NCBI GenBank assembly: GCA_016212215.1
Contig: JACRGV010000011.1
Span: forward strand, 1 to 34,604
Direction of reading: 5' to 3'
Source of the DNA: Nitrospirota bacterium
Lineage (GTDB): Bacteria; Nitrospirota; 9FT-COMBO-42-15; HDB-SIOI813
DNA: 34,604 nucleotides
A program made the translations under genes and the position numbers. Shown in pieces: positions 10,570 to 27,308 of this stretch. Numbering within the stretch: the first letter of the stretch is position 1; each line of letters begins with the position of its first letter. The notes below the pieces were generated by a model that was given only the letters and a program-made list of their open reading frames with translations, had not been told where the DNA came from and did not search any database.

Positions 10570-10911
10570 CTATTCAGGTTGCTCGCTTACTTCTTTTATT
10601 TTAGAAATAACTTCCTCTATAGATGGTTTATCGCAGGGTATATGACCTTCCGGATATTCAACTGGATGATAGTGCCATTCTTTTAAATTATCATATCCGA
10701 ATATTCTTTGACCATTCTCAATCAATGCAAAATCCATCCTTTCATTTCTGGCATTATAACGCACAGCTATAAAGAGTTTTTCACCTATATGAATATTAGC
10801 TTTAAAGGATCGCGGCGTATTTAATAGGATTTCAAACCTGTATCCAGAAAAATACTTTTCTATAGAGTTATTTATATCTGAAAGGAAGTCATCAACATTG
10901 TATATACTCAT
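10570..10911 (-). CDS. TumE-like (DUF6516) toxin candidate
   Basis: A 113-residue protein. A variable N-terminal half contains FEILLNTPRSFKANIHIGEK. The C-terminal half, FIAVRYNARNERMDFALIEN followed by RIFGYDNLKEWHYHPVEYPE and CDKPSIEEVISKIKEV, has the YDN...W-H-H pattern and the PSIEEVI tail I associate with DUF6516/TumE toxins of type II toxin-antitoxin modules. Assignment is by pattern recognition only. Its ATG overlaps the stop of the preceding small gene by 4 bp (ATGA), which is the normal coupled antitoxin-toxin arrangement. It looks intact, unlike the other toxin genes in this stretch. The likely activity of the toxin is not known to me with certainty. Confidence 0.6.
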   Translation of the reverse strand: MSIYNVDDFLSDINNSIEKYFSGYRFEILLNTPRSFKANIHIGEKLFIAVRYNARNERMDFALIENGQRIFGYDNLKEWHYHPVEYPEGHIPCDKPSIEEVISKIKEVSEQPE

Positions 10912-11234
10912 TTCTTTTTCACACCTTTGAGTCTGGTCAGCGCTGATAAAAGTTCTTTTTTCTCCATTCCTAACATCTCCCAGTCCATAAAATCACTTTC
11001 TACTTCATAGCTGTGTTTGTCTTGTATCTTATCTTCATCCCAATTTCTTTCAAATTCATAAAATGGAAGCCCGTATTTCTCCTCAAATTTTAATATTTCG
11101 TTATTAAATTTCGCAAGCCTGCTCTCAATTGCAGAAAAAAGTATATCGTCTATCTTTTCCCTCAAGATAACTTCCCCAAAAGACTCTACAAGTGCATTAT
11201 ATAAATCTTTATCTATTTCCAATATATTAGGCAT
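10908..11234 (-). CDS. TumA-like antitoxin candidate
   Basis: A 108-residue, highly charged protein with predicted helices: LEIDKDLYNALVESFGEVIL, then FNNEILKFEEKYGLPFYEFE, then an acidic linker and HSYEVESDFMDWEMLGMEKK. The KYG-x-x-F-x-x-F and H-x-x-E-x-D-x-x-x-W pattern is that of small antitoxins found directly before DUF6516 toxins. The start is firm: GAGGAGGG sits 5 nt before ATG 11234. That ribosome binding site lies inside the 3' end of a broken PIN-domain gene, so the pair was apparently placed directly into, or next to, an older module. Function is inferred mainly from pairing. Confidence 0.55.
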   Translation of the reverse strand: MPNILEIDKDLYNALVESFGEVILREKIDDILFSAIESRLAKFNNEILKFEEKYGLPFYEFERNWDEDKIQDKHSYEVESDFMDWEMLGMEKKELLSALTRLKGVKKK

Positions 11235-12440: not shown

Positions 12441-12803
12441 TTACAAGGGTAGTCCGTGTGCGGCATTCCACAATTCTTCGCGGACAAGATCAAAACCGCG
12501 GGGGTCCAAGACCAGCCGCAGCGGAATTGATCCTCCAAGTGCCCGATTGGGTTCGTGAAACCATTCAGTAATCGCATCTTCATTCAAAGACTTCAAGGCA
12601 AGGGCAATAAGCTCCTGCAGCCTGATCAACGGATAATACTGCGCCGGCGGACCATCCTCTAACCAGCGGTAGACGGTCCTGATGCCGGTATCCAACAGCA
12701 GGGAAAGCTCCCCATCAGACGGATTTAAAAGACGCTTGATTTCAGCAACCGGGTTATCGGTCTTTCTTGCCCGGACTGGTCTATGTTTGGCAATTGCAGG
12801 CAT
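12441..12803 (-). CDS. MbcA/ParS/Xre-type antitoxin, orphan
   Basis: A 120-residue protein. Residues about 20-60 form a helix-turn-helix region (EIKRLLNPSDGELSLLLDTG, then TVYRWLEDGPPAQYYPLIRL). The C-terminal part ITEWFHEPNRALGGSIPLRL, with DPRGFDLVREELWN after it, is the toxin-binding domain (DUF2384) of MbcA/ParS/Xre antitoxins, in which the WxxxPNxALGGxxPL pattern is diagnostic. The usual partner is a RES-domain NAD+-degrading toxin. None is seen: a repeat follows downstream and an MscS gene lies upstream. The gene is clearly richer in G+C than its neighbours, which suggests transfer. The start has only a weak AAGAGA site. A well-formed promoter with a palindrome in its spacer lies 18-46 bp upstream, fitting autorepression. 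Confidence 0.75.
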   Translation of the reverse strand: MPAIAKHRPVRARKTDNPVAEIKRLLNPSDGELSLLLDTGIRTVYRWLEDGPPAQYYPLIRLQELIALALKSLNEDAITEWFHEPNRALGGSIPLRLVLDPRGFDLVREELWNAAHGLPL

Positions 12804-14007: not shown

Positions 14008-15297
14008 TTACTTTATATCATCACTACTTCCTGAAAGACCGTCCGGGCCTTTGCTGTAAATACTGTAACCTTGCGGCAGTGGTTCAAAGACAAATTTATT
14101 ACCCCATGGGTCCGTTATAATATCTTCGCTAATGAAATGTTCTTGATAAAGCGATTCAAGGGATTCCGACAATTTACCGTTTGCCTTCTGATAAAATGTA
14201 ATTGCATTTCTCAGGGAGGTCATCTCATCTACTGCTGAGGATTTCTTTAATCTATCATAAGCTGAAGAATAATCCTTGATACCGGCAATCTCTCTAATTG
14301 AGAAAAATATAAAAATGGAACTAACAATAAATATCAATATAGCAATCTGAACAGCGGTCCAGATACGTCTCTTTTCATTTTTTTCTTCATGAAGGGGTAC
14401 GTCAAATCCCTCCGGCGGGGTTGGAAAACCCCGCCTATCCAGAGATATATTATGGATAGGTGGGACATTCTTGTCCCATCCATTTTCATCCACCTTTGTG
14501 AGCGCCCCGCTCATGTTCGATTCATCCGAAGATGAGCGCAGCTCACCCTCCCCTTGCGGGAGGAGGTTAAGGGGAGGAGTGGATGTTATCTCCTCTATAA
14601 GCCCCGCTACTTTTAATGCAGCTATGTTTTTGAAGACATCAAACTCTGTAAGATTTACAAGTTGTTTGATCATACGTATATCCCTCTGCCCGTCAATCAG
14701 ATTGAAGACACTCATCTCCTCCGGGGTTAAAGAGGAAAATAATGACTCTGCTTCTTCACCTTTTAATGATTGAGAAAAGATTATATTCTCTGATGAGATA
14801 TGGGATTCAATGTATGGCCATTCATCAAGCATCCGGATACCTTCCATAAGGATGAAATCAGTTGGAATCGGTATCTGATACTCCTTTTCATATTCAATCT
14901 CCTGTGCATCAAATTTATACCATCCGTTCTTCCATCTGAATGCCTGAAATATCACATCTTTTATCTGTATCTGTAAAACATCTTTCAGATCATCCTCTGA
15001 AATTGCACCGGAGGCCGTAAGTATGTGACCGATTTTTCCACCTGTATTCTGCTGAACAATAAGGGCATCTTCAAGCGCCTTTTCAGACAGCTTCCCTAAC
15101 CCTATAAGAAGCCTCCCGACCTTCTCATTCTCTCCCATTTTGGTTGATACAGCATAGACTATCTCTCCTACGGAGAAATTTATTGATGCAACAGCCTCAC
15201 CGTTTTGGATTGTGAGTACACCGCTCTTTTTCTGGAGGTTGATGAGCTGAAATATATCGGCAATGCCGAAGTCTTTTATAGAACCTTCTAATGCCAT
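14008..15297 (-). CDS. PATAN/DUF4388 protein with repeat insert and pseudopilin-like tail
   Basis: A 429-residue protein in three parts. Residues 1-~175 are a PATAN/DUF4388 module: MALEGSIKDFGIADIFQLIN, KSGVLTIQNG, and a helical part with VGRLLIGLGKLSEKALEDAL and KIGHILTASGAISEDDLKDV. A small helical region with FNLIDGQRDIRMIKQLVNLT (about 198-230) follows. After a membrane segment (IWTAVQIAILIFIVSSIFIF, about 309-330), the C-terminus resembles the GspG/pseudopilin end (DPWGNKFVFEPLPQGYSIYS, then SKGPDGLSGSSDDI). PATAN proteins occur in gliding and pilus-related signalling; the role here is unknown. Residues about 237-298 come from repeat modules, so the linker between soluble and membrane parts is repeat-made. 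It starts 3 bp after the plsY fusion. Confidence 0.82.
   Translation of the reverse strand: MALEGSIKDFGIADIFQLINLQKKSGVLTIQNGEAVASINFSVGEIVYAVSTKMGENEKVGRLLIGLGKLSEKALEDALIVQQNTGGKIGHILTASGAISEDDLKDVLQIQIKDVIFQAFRWKNGWYKFDAQEIEYEKEYQIPIPTDFILMEGIRMLDEWPYIESHISSENIIFSQSLKGEEAESLFSSLTPEEMSVFNLIDGQRDIRMIKQLVNLTEFDVFKNIAALKVAGLIEEITSTPPLNLLPQGEGELRSSSDESNMSGALTKVDENGWDKNVPPIHNISLDRRGFPTPPEGFDVPLHEEKNEKRRIWTAVQIAILIFIVSSIFIFFSIREIAGIKDYSSAYDRLKKSSAVDEMTSLRNAITFYQKANGKLSESLESLYQEHFISEDIITDPWGNKFVFEPLPQGYSIYSKGPDGLSGSSDDIK
14402..14588. repeat. B + C + A-like composite inside the PATAN gene
   Basis: Module B (about 14408-14484, CCGGCGGGGTTGG...CATTCTTGTCCCATCC), module C (14486-14533, stem TGAGC-gcccc-GCTCA, then TTCGATTCATCCGAA), then an A-like piece with GCTCACCCTCCCC and a CTCCCCTTGCGGGAG hairpin. 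About 62 codons are read through on the minus strand without a stop. Confidence 0.9.
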
Positions 15298-15300
15298 TTC

Positions 15301-17589
15301 TTATTTAAAACGCATCCTTATATATTTGAAGTTTAAGAATATCATTACATAAGAAACAATTATGAGAAACAATCCTACAAGGTAAATCTTATGCGGGATA
15401 ATATAGGCTGAGAATCTTATGTCATATAAATTACCGGATAAAAAACATAAAAGACCCATAAAGAAAATTAGATTTACAATAATGCCGAAGAATGTATTTC
15501 CCCTGTAGATATGCCAAATCCCTGGTAGAAGAAATGAAAATCGTTTATCAAGACCTGTTTCAGTTATTTCTTCTTTCTCCCCTTTCTTCCTGCACTCCAT
15601 GCATATACTCCCAAAGACCCTTGACCCTTTACATAACCCGCAAACAATCCGTCTGCACTCAGGACAATAGTAGGCCATTGGGGTCCTTGGTTTAACATAA
15701 GATAATACAGTAATAAATATAAGTAGACTGACACCAAGAAACGGGAATCTGTCCCCGGATATTCTGAATATCCCATGCAGGACATCCTGCTCCCACATCT
15801 TTGATTCTTCTGTAGGACGCAGTGCAACAGACCACAGGTCGCTTTTACTTATTGGATAATCTACTACACTACTTCCGCCTTTTGAAGAAATACCTGAAAA
15901 CTTTTCTGTGTCCTTGAGATTGATACCTCGTGCAGTGTTATATGCCTTATCAGCCTCTTCAAACATCAATTTCTCACGGTATGCGAGACTAAGATTGTAT
16001 GAGGGTATGGCAGATATTGATGTCTCTTTAGCCGCGGCCTTGTAATACTCAATTGCCTTATCATGGTCACCTGATTCAAAATAAAGATTGCCGATATTAT
16101 TCAAGGCTGTAGTCTTAACGCCCTCATTGTCAGAAACAAGAATTTTCCTGTAGTATTCAATTGCCCCGTTAATGTCACCTTCTTTACTAATTAAAGCGGC
16201 GATACTTAGCGGCAGGTAAGTATTATCAGGCATAGCTGCGTATTGTTCTTTAAGTTTCATAATAAGGGTAGTGTCCCCGATGCCGTTGTCTGCTGCAATC
16301 AAACCCTGTAAGGTTATATTGTTATGATTATTAAGATAACCGGCATTATATTTAAGCAGTATTGGAAGGGATAATAAAAATATCAGGATAAGTACCGCAG
16401 TTATTCTTTCTCTCTTGTTCAAATAAATCCAGAGGCAGATAATCCAGAATATTACAAACCATCCTATTCCCAATACTGCGGGAAAAACAACAACAAAACC
16501 TAAAAACAGGGGACGCAGATAACCTTCAATATAGTTAGATGTAGTTTCCCTGAAGGTATGATAAAAAACAGGCAGGATACGTATCATCCATGCGAGCAAA
16601 ATAGAAAAAGATGTGAATAGGATAGTAATCGTCAGGAAAAGGAAAACCGTGCCGGTAATGTTATAAAGTGTCCGGAAGTCCTTAAAAGAGACCTTGATCC
16701 CATCTATATATTCTGAAAATGCAGGGGCAAACTTTGACATCTTCCTGAGAGATTTTGCAGTAAGAAAATATGCAGGGGCATAATCAGGGGATAATTCTTT
16801 TGCACTGACTCCAATCCTGTAAGCCTCTTCTGCCTGTCCTTTATCAATATTTATGTAGCCTTCCCTGATGAGAAGCGGCAGTGATTGTGTATGCGTTGTT
16901 TTTGATGATTGAACCCCAGCAAAAACATTAGTTGCAATAAGGATAAAGATAAGAAAAAGTAAGGTAGTTGTAGTGTTATTATTCTTAATCTTATTCTTAC
17001 TTATCCGCTTTTCTTCCCCGCTGATAAGTCTCTTTATGTTTTCAATATGGCGAATATAAATCATTGATGAAATCAGGATTGTAAAAATCAAGTACAGTAT
17101 GGATTTTTCTCCTAAGACGACTACGATCGGCATTAATGCAAAAGAAATCAAGGCGCCAAGGGATGAATATTTCCATAAAACCAGACTGATTATCCAAATA
17201 CCAAGTGTGATAAACCCTGCATAAGGCCACAGTGCAAACAAAACACCATAACTCGTTGCAACCCCTTTACCCCCTTTAAATTTCAGGTATACGGGAAAGT
17301 TATGACCTATCACAGCGGCAAATGCGATAACAAGTGTCCATGAATCTATTCCCCATAATTGCCTTGCAATAAGTACCGGTATAAATCCTTTTAACGCATC
17401 CAGTAATAATGTAATAGCACCGCCGAGTTTACCTGTGGTTCTAAGGACATTGGTAGCACCGATATTCCCACTGCCCATCTTCCGTATATCACCGGCACCC
17501 ATGAACATAGATATTATAAGGCCGAATGGGATCGCACCGGTAAAATAGCTGACCACTGTAAGCAATATTTTAATAAAATAACTATTCAT
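15301..17589 (-). CDS. plsY: PlsY fused to a TPR/zinc-ribbon membrane protein
   Basis: A single 762-codon frame. Residues 1-~200 are a complete PlsY, the acyl-phosphate:glycerol-3-phosphate acyltransferase of phosphatidic acid synthesis. Motif 1 is KMGSGNIGATNVLRTTGKLG, motif 2 is KFKGGKGVATSYG, and motif 3 is RHIENIKRLISGEE, where PlsY proteins normally end. It continues with KNKIKNNNTTTTLLFLIFIL and IATNVFAGVQ, which looks like the signal peptide of a separate protein. Then follow a membrane/TPR protein (membrane segments near 325 and 375-415; TPRs near 470-560, e.g. TALNNIGNLYFESGDHDKAI), a four-Cys zinc ribbon (YCPECRRIVCGLCKG...CMECRKK, about 645-675) and C-terminal membrane segments. 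I infer fusion of two formerly adjacent genes. The role of the second half is unknown. Confidence 0.85.
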   Translation of the reverse strand: MNSYFIKILLTVVSYFTGAIPFGLIISMFMGAGDIRKMGSGNIGATNVLRTTGKLGGAITLLLDALKGFIPVLIARQLWGIDSWTLVIAFAAVIGHNFPVYLKFKGGKGVATSYGVLFALWPYAGFITLGIWIISLVLWKYSSLGALISFALMPIVVVLGEKSILYLIFTILISSMIYIRHIENIKRLISGEEKRISKNKIKNNNTTTTLLFLIFILIATNVFAGVQSSKTTHTQSLPLLIREGYINIDKGQAEEAYRIGVSAKELSPDYAPAYFLTAKSLRKMSKFAPAFSEYIDGIKVSFKDFRTLYNITGTVFLFLTITILFTSFSILLAWMIRILPVFYHTFRETTSNYIEGYLRPLFLGFVVVFPAVLGIGWFVIFWIICLWIYLNKRERITAVLILIFLLSLPILLKYNAGYLNNHNNITLQGLIAADNGIGDTTLIMKLKEQYAAMPDNTYLPLSIAALISKEGDINGAIEYYRKILVSDNEGVKTTALNNIGNLYFESGDHDKAIEYYKAAAKETSISAIPSYNLSLAYREKLMFEEADKAYNTARGINLKDTEKFSGISSKGGSSVVDYPISKSDLWSVALRPTEESKMWEQDVLHGIFRISGDRFPFLGVSLLIFITVLSYVKPRTPMAYYCPECRRIVCGLCKGSRVFGSICMECRKKGEKEEITETGLDKRFSFLLPGIWHIYRGNTFFGIIVNLIFFMGLLCFLSGNLYDIRFSAYIIPHKIYLVGLFLIIVSYVMIFLNFKYIRMRFK

Positions 17590-17673: not shown

Positions 17674-18237
17674 TTATACAATATCTTTATCCTTGTTAAA
17701 ATTACTCCAGAATCTGTAAAAATATTCAAAGGCCGAGATGAGGGATAATATTGCGGCAAACCAGAGGCCTACAGTTCCAATAAAGTGGAAATCAATGGTT
17801 TCTCCGGCTATTATAACAGGATAGCCGAGAACAAGAAGAATTATTGCGAAAATCTGAACAACTGTTTTATACTTCCCGATATCTCTTGCCTCAATAACAA
17901 CCCCTACAGAGGAGGCTATTGCCCTTAATCCGGTTATTGCAAGCTCCCTTCCAATTATCAGGATCGCAATCCATGATGCAACCCTTCCGAACTCTACAAG
18001 CATAACAAGCGCTGATAGAACAAGAAGTTTATCTGCAACCGGGTCAAGGAATTTGCCGGAGAGAGTAACCTGTCCCCATTTTCTTGCTAAATAACCATCA
18101 AACCAGTCGGTTATTGAGGCAACTGAAAAAACCAGGGCCGCCCAAAAAGAACGATCAGATGTAGGGGTATTAAATACAATTATAAAAAAAGGGATTAATA
18201 ATATTCGAATAATCGAAAGGATATTCGGGAGATTCAA
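17674..18237 (-). CDS. pgsA: CDP-diacylglycerol-glycerol-3-phosphate phosphatidyltransferase
   Basis: PgsA makes phosphatidylglycerol-phosphate, the committed step to phosphatidylglycerol and cardiolipin, in the inner membrane. The 187-residue length is normal. The CDP-alcohol phosphotransferase motif DG-x2-AR-x8-G-x3-D-x3-D is seen as DWFDGYLARKWGQVTLSGKF then LDPVADKL (about residues 41-68). The start NLPNILSIIRILLIPFFII is the usual first helix, and further helices lie near 78-95, 125-142 and 150-168. Its ATG overlaps the kdsC stop by 4 bp, coupling envelope phospholipid synthesis with Kdo synthesis. Confidence 0.95.
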   Translation of the reverse strand: MNLPNILSIIRILLIPFFIIVFNTPTSDRSFWAALVFSVASITDWFDGYLARKWGQVTLSGKFLDPVADKLLVLSALVMLVEFGRVASWIAILIIGRELAITGLRAIASSVGVVIEARDIGKYKTVVQIFAIILLVLGYPVIIAGETIDFHFIGTVGLWFAAILSLISAFEYFYRFWSNFNKDKDIV

Positions 18238-24773: not shown

Positions 24774-24880
24774 TATGTCTTTACTATTCACTATTCACCA
24801 CTCACTATTCACTGTTTTTCTTCTTACTTCTTGCTTATAAATTCTTACTTCTGCTCCCTGCTCACTGCTTACTGCTCACT
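24774..24880. repeat. Degenerate short tandem tract
   Basis: TATGTCTTTACTATTCACTA continues as repeated CACTATTC/CACTCACT units, then TTCTTACTTC units and CTGCTCACTGCTTACTGCTC near the lepB stop. Low-complexity 7-bp-like periodicity; no coding potential. Confidence 0.75.
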
Positions 24881-25500
24881 CATCTAATCCAATGCCCAAT
24901 CCTTTTCCACCTGACCCAGCTATCCTCTCCATCCCATGACCAGTAGATAATAAATGCCCTGCCCTTTATCTTATTCAGCTTTACAAAGCCCCAGTATCTG
25001 CTGTCAAGGCTGAAGTCCCTGTTATCTCCCATAACAAAATAAGATCCTTCAGGTACAATAACCGGCCCAAAGTTATCGCGCGGCTGAATACCATAAGGGT
25101 AGACTACTGCATCATTGTGCTCCGGATATGATTCTTCAAGTGGATTGCCGTTTATATATACCTTTTTCTCCTTAACCTCCAGTGTATCGCCGGGGAGGCC
25201 GATGACACGTTTAATAAAATCCTTACTCTCATCCTCAGGATACTTGAAAACAATAATATCCCCGCGTGCAGGTTTTTTAAACGGTATAATAATCCTGTCT
25301 GTAAACGGGAGTTTGGTCCCATAAATAAACTTACTTACCAGAATATGGTCCCCTATCTTTAACGTCGGAATCATTGACCCTGAAGGGATCTTGAATGCCT
25401 GAATAAAGAATGCCTTAATAATCAGGGCCATTACAATTGCTATAACAATTGATTCTACATATTCACGTATGATGTTCTTTTTATCTTTTTTATTTTCCAT
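24880..25500 (-). CDS. lepB: Signal peptidase I
   Basis: The inner-membrane serine protease that removes signal peptides from secreted proteins. 206 residues: a cytoplasmic KKDKKNIIREYVES start, one membrane anchor (IVIAIVMALIIKAFFIQAF), box B FKIPSGSMIPTLKIGDHILV with the catalytic Ser, box D RGDIIVFKYPED, FIKRVIGLPGDTLEV with the catalytic Lys, and box E YFVMGDNRDFSLDSRYWGFV. I chose ATG 25500 over the frame-opening Met at 25641 because the latter would overlap 136 bp of lepA and add 47 non-family residues. AAGGA at the end of lepA lies 9 nt upstream of 25500, and the lepA stop is only 5 bp away. The lepA-lepB pair is a classic operon. Confidence 0.95.
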   Translation of the reverse strand: MENKKDKKNIIREYVESIVIAIVMALIIKAFFIQAFKIPSGSMIPTLKIGDHILVSKFIYGTKLPFTDRIIIPFKKPARGDIIVFKYPEDESKDFIKRVIGLPGDTLEVKEKKVYINGNPLEESYPEHNDAVVYPYGIQPRDNFGPVIVPEGSYFVMGDNRDFSLDSRYWGFVKLNKIKGRAFIIYWSWDGEDSWVRWKRIGHWIR

Positions 25501-25505
25501 ATAAC

Positions 25506-27308
25506 TTAATCCTTCACCTGAAGTATCGCAAGGAATGCCTCCTGCGGTATCTCTACCCTTCCAAACTGTTTCATTCGCTTTTTCCCCTTCTTTTGTTTTT
25601 CCAGCAGTTTTCTTTTTCTTGATATATCTCCGCCATAGCACTTGGCTATAACATCCTTCTTTAATGCCTTGACAGTCTCCCTTGCAATAATCTTTGCACC
25701 TATCGCCGCCTGTATGGCAACCTCAAACATCTGTCTGGGAATAAGCTCCTTCATCTTCTCAGCAAGCATACGCCCGCGTACCTCAGCCTTATCCCTGTGG
25801 GTAATAAAAGAGAGTGCATCAACAACCTCGCCATTCAACAATATATCAAGCCTTACAAGATTTGATTCCCTGTAGCCAAGAATTTCATAATCAAGTGAGG
25901 CATACCCTTTGGATATTGACTTCAGCCTGTCGTAGAAATCCATCACAATCTCATTTAACGGGAGTTCATATAATAGCATCATGCGTTCTTTGCTGACATA
26001 CTTCAACTCACGCTGAATCCCGCGGCGTTCCTGGCATAAACCTATAATCGCCCCTGCATATTCTGAAGGCGTAATTATTGTAGCAATTATAAACGGCTCT
26101 TCAAATCTCTCAATAAACTGTACCTGCGGTAACCTTGCAGGACTGTCTATTAAAAGTACCGCGCCATTTGTAGTGGTTACCCTGTAAACTACCGTAGGGG
26201 CTGTACTTAAAAGGTCAAGACCGAATTCACGCTCAAGCCTTTCATGGATAATCTCCATGTGAAGTAGGCCGAGATAACCGCACCTGAAACCGAATCCTAG
26301 TGCAAGAGAGCTTTCAGGCTCAAAAGTGAAAGACGAATCATTGAGCCTCAATTTCTCTACTGCATCCCTTAGATCCTTGTAGTCGTCCGATTCCACAGGA
26401 TAAAGTCCTGCAAAGACCATTGGTTTTACTTCCCTGTAACCTGGAAACGCAGATTCAGTAGGATGGGATGCATCGGTGATGGTGTCCCCGATTTTTGTAT
26501 CACCTACCTTTTTAATACCTGCAACTAAGAAACCTACCTCTCCTGCTGATAATTCATTGACAGTCACAGGCTTTGGCGTGAATATACCGAGTGTCTGGAC
26601 TTCAAGAATATTGCCTGTAGACATAAACTTTATCTGCTGACCTGGGAATATACTGCCGTCAACTACACGAATCAGTACAATAACCCCCTGATAATTGTCA
26701 TACCACGAGTCAAACATCAGGGCCTTAAGAGGACGGTCAATATCACCGGTCGGATGAGGTATTTTTTTTATTATTGATTCAAGGATATCAACAGTCCCGA
26801 TACCCTCTTTGGCGCTTGCAGGTATGGCCTCACTTGCATCCAGCCCAAGCACCTCTTCTATCTGTCTTTTGGCATCCTCAACATCAGCACCGGGCAGGTC
26901 AATCTTATTAATAACCGGCAATATTTCAAGGTTATTATCAATGGCAAGGTAGGTATTAGCGATTGTCTGTGCCTCAACACCCTGCGATGCATCTACAATA
27001 AGCAGTGCACCCTCACAGGCCGCAAGGCTTCTCGATACTTCATAAGTAAAATCCACATGCCCTGGGGTATCAATGAGATTAAGAATATACTCATTCCCAT
27101 CCTTTGCCGTGTAATGAAGCCGCACAGCATGGGCCTTAATCGTAATCCCCCTCTCACGCTCAAGGTCCATGGCATCGAGCACCTGCTCCTTAAAATCCCT
27201 CTGCTCAAGTGCCCCGGTCTGTTCAAGGAGACGATCGGCTAAGGTTGATTTACCATGATCAATGTGTGCGATTATGGAAAAGTTTCTAATCTTCTGTTGG
27301 AGTGCCAT
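25506..27308 (-). CDS. lepA: Elongation factor 4 (LepA)
   Basis: A ribosomal GTPase that back-translocates or remodels stalled ribosomes and affects initiation. The 600-residue length is standard. G domain: [20 protein letters not shown] (G1), [13 protein letters not shown] (G2), [20 protein letters not shown] (G3), [20 protein letters not shown] (G4), [14 protein letters not shown] (G5). The LepA-specific C-terminal domain has [20 protein letters not shown] and [20 protein letters not shown]. It is the first gene of the leftward run; the 211-bp gap upstream separates it from a divergent kelch gene. No strong leftward promoter could be picked. Confidence 0.98.

Follow-up and report, generated by a model that had tools for sequence, protein, structure and literature searches.

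We report a single open reading frame of an uncultured Nitrospirota bacterium in which the essential lipid enzyme PlsY runs on, behind an internal signal peptide, into a TPR/six-cysteine membrane protein. Judging from the sequence, we think it likely that this fusion is a polyprotein which signal peptidase I would split, giving PlsY and a TPR/zinc-ribbon protein that faces the periplasm, a cleavage that we infer. The frame lies on the minus strand at 15301-17589 of the window (the whole stretch of 34,604 nucleotides that was analysed). It has 762 codons, starts with ATG and is open throughout; at the seam both other frames contain stops and the coding frame has none. The original prediction that PlsY continues into a TPR and ribbon membrane protein is borne out by this one open frame, by profile matches to its parts and by the same fusion in six more members of the family. 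The signal-peptide-like segment announced within the protein is present as well, with an n-region, an uncharged run and the motif VFA/G, and it overlaps the last four residues assigned to PlsY (Table 1). The predicted ribbon of CxxC pairs also exists, but it is built from three such pairs, with six cysteines, and not from two. Behind the seam the second protein comprises, in order, N-terminal helical repeats, membrane segments, a TPR block, a membrane segment, the ribbon and two C-terminal membrane segments.

Table 1. Positions, within the window, of the parts of the fused frame and of neighbouring genes.
Feature	Position	Strand	Details
PlsY domain, apparently complete	16999..17589	(-)	residues 1-197; TIGR00023 above cut-off, PF02660
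Internal signal peptide (predicted)	16918..17010	(-)	residues 194-224; n-region 194-205, core 206-220, proposed site VFA224/G225
Mature second protein (predicted)	15304..16917	(-)	residues 225-762
TPR block	15979..16203	(-)	residues about 463-537; Pfam TPR models
Six-cysteine ribbon CxxC-x4-CxxC-x9-CxxC	15592..15666	(-)	residues 642-666
Downstream partner gene (DUF4388, MshE-type c-di-GMP-binding motif, membrane segment, GspG-like tail)	14008..15297	(-)	
pgsA, directly upstream	17674..18237	(-)	TIGR00560 1.8e-50
lepB (signal peptidase I)	24880..25641	(-)	about 7 kb upstream; TIGR02227 6.1e-56 at 24931-25458

The domain of PlsY, an acyl-phosphate:glycerol-3-phosphate acyltransferase, looks complete. 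TIGR00023, the PlsY model, matches residues 6-197 with 4.1e-52 and 176.8 bits, above its cut-off of 137.2, PF02660 matches this half with 2e-51, and the only solved relative found by sequence is the PlsY of A. aeolicus (5XJ5, E 1.5e-39 over residues 8-196). The G3P pocket of the latter contains Ser35, Arg45, Lys104, Ser142, His177 and Asn180 (PMC5700162); five of these six residues are identical in the window PlsY (S40, R50, K108, H181 and N184), and Ser142 aligns with Ala146. Since alanine also occupies this position in unfused PlsY, namely that of G008 and a row of family f3 (L055, alignment A4), the fusion is not its cause. PlsX, the supplier of acyl-phosphate, is encoded in the same genome. 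PlsY is described as a protein of seven membrane helices with its active site on the cytoplasmic side (PMC5700162), and as motif 3 near the C-terminus belongs to the G3P pocket, the C-terminus should be cytoplasmic.

To place the fusion among relatives, ten genomes of the family of this bacterium (f1, the present genome G000 included) were compared. The locus was found in eight of them, fused in seven (G000, G001, G003 up to the contig end, G004, G006, G007 and G009) and as two genes in one (G008); neither gene was found in G002 (70% complete) or G005 (77% complete). The f1 fusions cover four genera, and outside f1 the fusion was present in both f15 genomes found with the locus (G045 and G193). 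The proposed check in related genomes thus returned the fusion. Across 395 Nitrospirota genomes, PlsY was detected in 369 and the TPR/six-cysteine protein in 131, belonging to 88 of 170 genera. Nine of these 131 genomes carry the fusion, a count in which fusions broken by a contig end could be missed. The remaining TPR frames of at least 690 residues (G010, G118, G313, G297, G174, G369, G231, G158, G185, G024 and G032) were in no case fused to PlsY; G158 and G185 have separate PlsY frames of 214 and 222 aa, and G024 and G032 are without PlsY. Among named genomes, a scan with the single protein gave no relative, whereas a narrower alignment did, the nearest records being 'Nitrospirae bacterium' RBG_16_43_11, RIFCSPLOW2_12_42_9, nzgw272 and nzgw273. 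The two genes being separate in most of the phylum, the view of the junction as the start of a formerly separate gene is upheld; the unfused orthologues of the second protein begin with an export signal.

A stop codon removed by sequencing or binning error could also produce such a frame, and all of the genomes are metagenome-assembled. However, the same fused frame recurs in seven f1 genomes, several of them under separately named records, and in two f15 genomes, which makes this explanation exceedingly improbable. Recent stop loss and assembly error were both rejected on this agreement of independent genomes; the recent loss of a stop codon envisaged in the original prediction does not fit a fusion that spans four f1 genera and appears again in f15. 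Relatives with two genes, which were to speak against the fusion if joined by read evidence for an error, do exist, but a missed stop or frameshift at the junction is contradicted by the same agreement.

The gene order at the loci inspected is pgsA, plsY, TPR gene and DUF4388 gene, often preceded by kdsC. Adjacency was scored in 83 of the 131 genomes, from the best PlsY matches listed, and in 81 of these 83 the PlsY domain is followed on the same strand, at a distance of at most 2.5 kb, by the ribbon part of the TPR gene; in G003 and G040 the PlsY and ribbon matches are on different contigs. In most unfused pairs the two genes are contiguous, share a few bases or sit within about 35 bases of each other, so that a stop loss or a small frame change would be enough to join many of them. 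In a tree of the PgsA, PlsY and TPR proteins from 34 loci (a quick search with SH-aLRT support only; its branches are long and the composition of some rows is unusual), f1 forms a single clade (SH-aLRT 100) and f15 is found elsewhere, among unfused families. G008, whose two genes overlap by ATGA, pairs inside f1 with the fused G003 (SH-aLRT 99). The minimum number of changes on this tree is three, for example two fusions and one split; several separate fusions inside f1, in place of one fusion plus a split, would also explain the pattern. The split in G008 comes from one 81%-complete genome and may be due to an indel error there. The f15 fusion is probably an event independent of that in f1, and the fusion itself is real, old and lineage-fixed, having probably arisen at least twice. 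Elsewhere in the window, an antitoxin Xre/MbcA/ParS C-terminal domain (PF09722, 4.1e-10) is encoded on the minus strand at 12441-12803, followed by two ORFs (10908-11234 and 10570-10911) that matched no Pfam family.

At the seam of the window protein, an n-region of net charge +5 and a 15-residue uncharged run lead to the VFA/G motif. Each of the nine seams shows a positively charged segment after the final PlsY motif (net +2 to +5), a stretch of 12-17 uncharged, hydrophobic residues and a site of the signal peptidase I type (VFA, VFA, AFA, ALA, AYA, AFA, AYG, VLA and SLA, that is [AVS]xA, with AxG in one), as called by a simple, crude rule and not by a trained predictor; the AYG of G003 is the weaker site. 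An [AVS]x[AG] site occurs in 9/9 seams against 16/89 other hydrophobic segments of the same proteins, counted at the corresponding distance, an enrichment (Fisher p 1.3e-6) that is indicative only, the rows being related; as the nine sequences may stem from only two events, the 9/9 does not amount to nine independent proofs. Among the seven f1 proteins, positions -1 and -3 are small in 7/7; pair identity is 0.05-0.33 for most columns of the linker and reaches 0.5-0.7 in a few columns of the hydrophobic core. Every one of the nine fused genomes has signal peptidase I (TIGR02227) above cut-off; none was found in G008, the genome with split genes (81% complete). Upstream of plsY, a signal peptidase I gene also lies on the same contig and strand, at about 6 kb, in G003, G004, G006, G007 and G009.

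Two proteins could also arise from an internal translation start, the read-through product then being a by-product. Four of the nine seams (G006, G009, G004 and G007) do contain an in-frame start codon, one of them with an SD-like GGAG upstream. In the other five, that of the window included, no in-frame ATG, GTG or TTG was found between the PlsY end motif and the hydrophobic core, so that at these seams a single chain must give rise to both halves. An internal start was thus rejected as a general route, and as the explanation of the fusion it is very unlikely.

The course that we propose for a polyprotein cleaved by signal peptidase I is as follows. The plsY gene and its neighbour, once adjacent or overlapping cistrons, would have merged into one reading frame, whose translation would give a PlsY-TPR precursor. 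To judge from the published structure, the seventh PlsY helix would end in the cytoplasm, and the basic tail of PlsY would supply the n-region for the old signal peptide of the second protein. This signal peptide would enter the membrane as segment eight, its C-end on the outer side, and signal peptidase I would cleave after [AVS]xA. This topology predicts two products, PlsY carrying an additional helix at its C-terminus and, detached from it, the TPR/zinc-ribbon membrane protein. The fusion would then alter the production of the two halves (1:1, with no re-initiation) and not their function.

If the chain stayed uncut, the eighth TM helix would tether PlsY to the periplasmic TPRs, the cytoplasmic ribbon and, via the DUF4388 partner, c-di-GMP, and an envelope complex could place or regulate lipid synthesis. 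Purposeful tethering would also explain the persistence of the fusion, which is retained across the f1 genera and recurs in f15, and it agrees with the tight plsY-TPR gene synteny (81/83 testable genomes) and with the c-di-GMP motif above cut-off in the DUF4388 partner. However, the signal peptidase I site is conserved within a drifting linker, the uncharged core of 12-17 residues is short compared with most other segments, the TPR protein is retained without PlsY in genus g12, and most of the phylum has plsY and no TPR gene (369/395 versus 131/395 genomes). On these grounds an uncut tether seems unlikely to us. We consider it quite doubtful that PlsY is left uncut for a purpose, as a physical part of a membrane complex that includes the c-di-GMP-binding, pseudopilin-like partner, the committed phospholipid step answering to c-di-GMP or to the state of the envelope, or, in a milder form, that slow cleavage by signal peptidase I leaves tethered and free pools of PlsY. 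We know of no other PlsY tethered to a signalling complex; an uncut fusion would, if true, be the first. The suggested tie between phosphatidic acid synthesis and a scaffold is disfavoured by the signal peptidase I site in 9/9 seams, by the split in G008 and by the maintenance of the TPR protein where PlsY is undetectable, and a polyprotein cut at the seam is the reading that we prefer.

In the second half, the TPR models PF07719 (1e-11) and PF13424 (4.6e-9) match within residues 463-521, and PDB searches by sequence and by fold relate the TPR block to TPR chains of both designed and natural proteins. All six cysteines of the ribbon, which would be expected to bind zinc, are invariant in 21 relatives (alignment A1) and in 23 relatives (A3), and the C-terminal P-G and G positions are likewise invariant in the 23 rows of A3. 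With the structure model of the second half (mean pLDDT 69.6), all matches were generic TPR chains, headed by designed TPR proteins. The model of the entire chain is of poor quality (mean pLDDT 59.6, pTM 0.40, linker 194-235 below 50) and uninformative on contacts between PlsY and the TPRs. Loops rich in Lys and Arg occur on the presumed inner side (the short loop before the third segment, the ribbon loop and the C-tail), a distribution which, by the positive-inside rule, favours periplasmic TPRs and a cytoplasmic ribbon. This arrangement is probable if the hydrophobic stretch at about 360-390 forms a hairpin, the segment count being uncertain.

Several family assignments of the second half were rejected. 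The B-box zinc finger (PF00643) reached E 0.015 and 15.8 bits against a gathering score of 24.1. DUF6677 as a family name was matched by 15 of 23 C-terminal parts with a best E of only 0.004, and the literature search found no paper using this term. LapB/YciM was dismissed as no LapB model (NF008753) was among the matches of the window protein; the best match to LapB models among 21 relatives was 6.7e-9, and none was above cut-off in ten genomes. A separate LapB-like ORF of 465-489 aa, which stays below cut-off at E 2e-16 to 5e-21, was observed in G003, G004, G006, G007 and G009; at 1e-15 it was absent from G000 and from the other four of the ten genomes searched.

In genus g12 (family f7), no PlsY was detected at E<=10 in any of the three genomes (G015, G024 and G032, with a completeness of 98, 92 and 89%), each of which encodes PlsX and a single PF01553 acyltransferase. 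Their TPR gene comes immediately after pgsA, plsY missing between them (loci L022, L023, L027, L097 and L098); the TPR protein is thus kept without a detectable PlsY. The downstream partner is more regular. DUF4388 and the c-di-GMP-binding motif were above cut-off in the window protein (14008-15297; MshE-type motif 47.5 bits against a cut-off of 38) and in 10/10 relatives examined, and the GspG-like tail, with the motifs DPWGN ... GPDG ... DDI, was matched in 11/11 and above the Pfam gathering score in 8/11. A pseudopilin-like domain on a c-di-GMP protein is thus seen adjoining the TPR gene across Nitrospirota. The best reading of these data is that the DUF4388/c-di-GMP/GspG-like protein, and not PlsY, is the more constant partner of the TPR protein, with which it would be functionally paired. 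Since the TPR protein is kept without PlsY, PlsY occurs mostly without the TPR protein and DUF4388 is the most regular neighbour, we assign the second half to an unnamed envelope pair, which probably serves signalling or the assembly of a surface structure. The analysis brings out this conserved Nitrospirota pair beside phospholipid and KDO genes.

Our search of the literature found no published report of a PlsY-TPR fusion, and the part of PMC7203096 that was searched mentions neither PlsY nor tetratricopeptide. Compared with the A. aeolicus enzyme (5XJ5), residues 1-197 correspond to a full PlsY, whereas 565 further residues follow here. PlsY-DegV fusions of Bellilinea and Thermanaerothrix are named as UniProt entries in PMC5700162 (there 'DagV'). 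They too have a second protein joined to the PlsY C-terminus, but DegV binds fatty acids and its metabolic link is evident, whereas the partner described here is an exported protein with TPRs and a ribbon that follows a signal peptide. The ribbon of LapB has four cysteines. LapB/YciM combines TPRs with a rubredoxin domain, has a role in envelope lipid balance and holds both parts in the cytoplasm behind one N-terminal anchor, as described in PMC8745692. The present protein is, like LapB, an inner-membrane protein that unites TPRs with a cysteine ribbon; its gene has lipid and KDO genes nearby. It differs in its six cysteines, its several membrane segments and its TPRs, which are probably periplasmic on the charge pattern alone.

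If the seam is cut, we would have a lineage-fixed bacterial polyprotein that joins a housekeeping lipid enzyme to an exported protein of no known functional relation, with fusion and probably fission both seen among relatives. The inference that fused proteins interact could then fail where the seam contains an internal signal peptide, and looking for such a peptide is a simple test. A parallel is offered by FbcH of Bradyrhizobium, a cytochrome b/c1 polyprotein whose halves are parted by signal peptidase at an internal signal peptide. Both cases place two envelope proteins in one frame with a signal peptide at the seam; the FbcH halves are subunits of one complex and their cleavage is proven, whereas the halves of the PlsY-TPR protein have no known interaction and would be separated by a cleavage that we infer from the seam.
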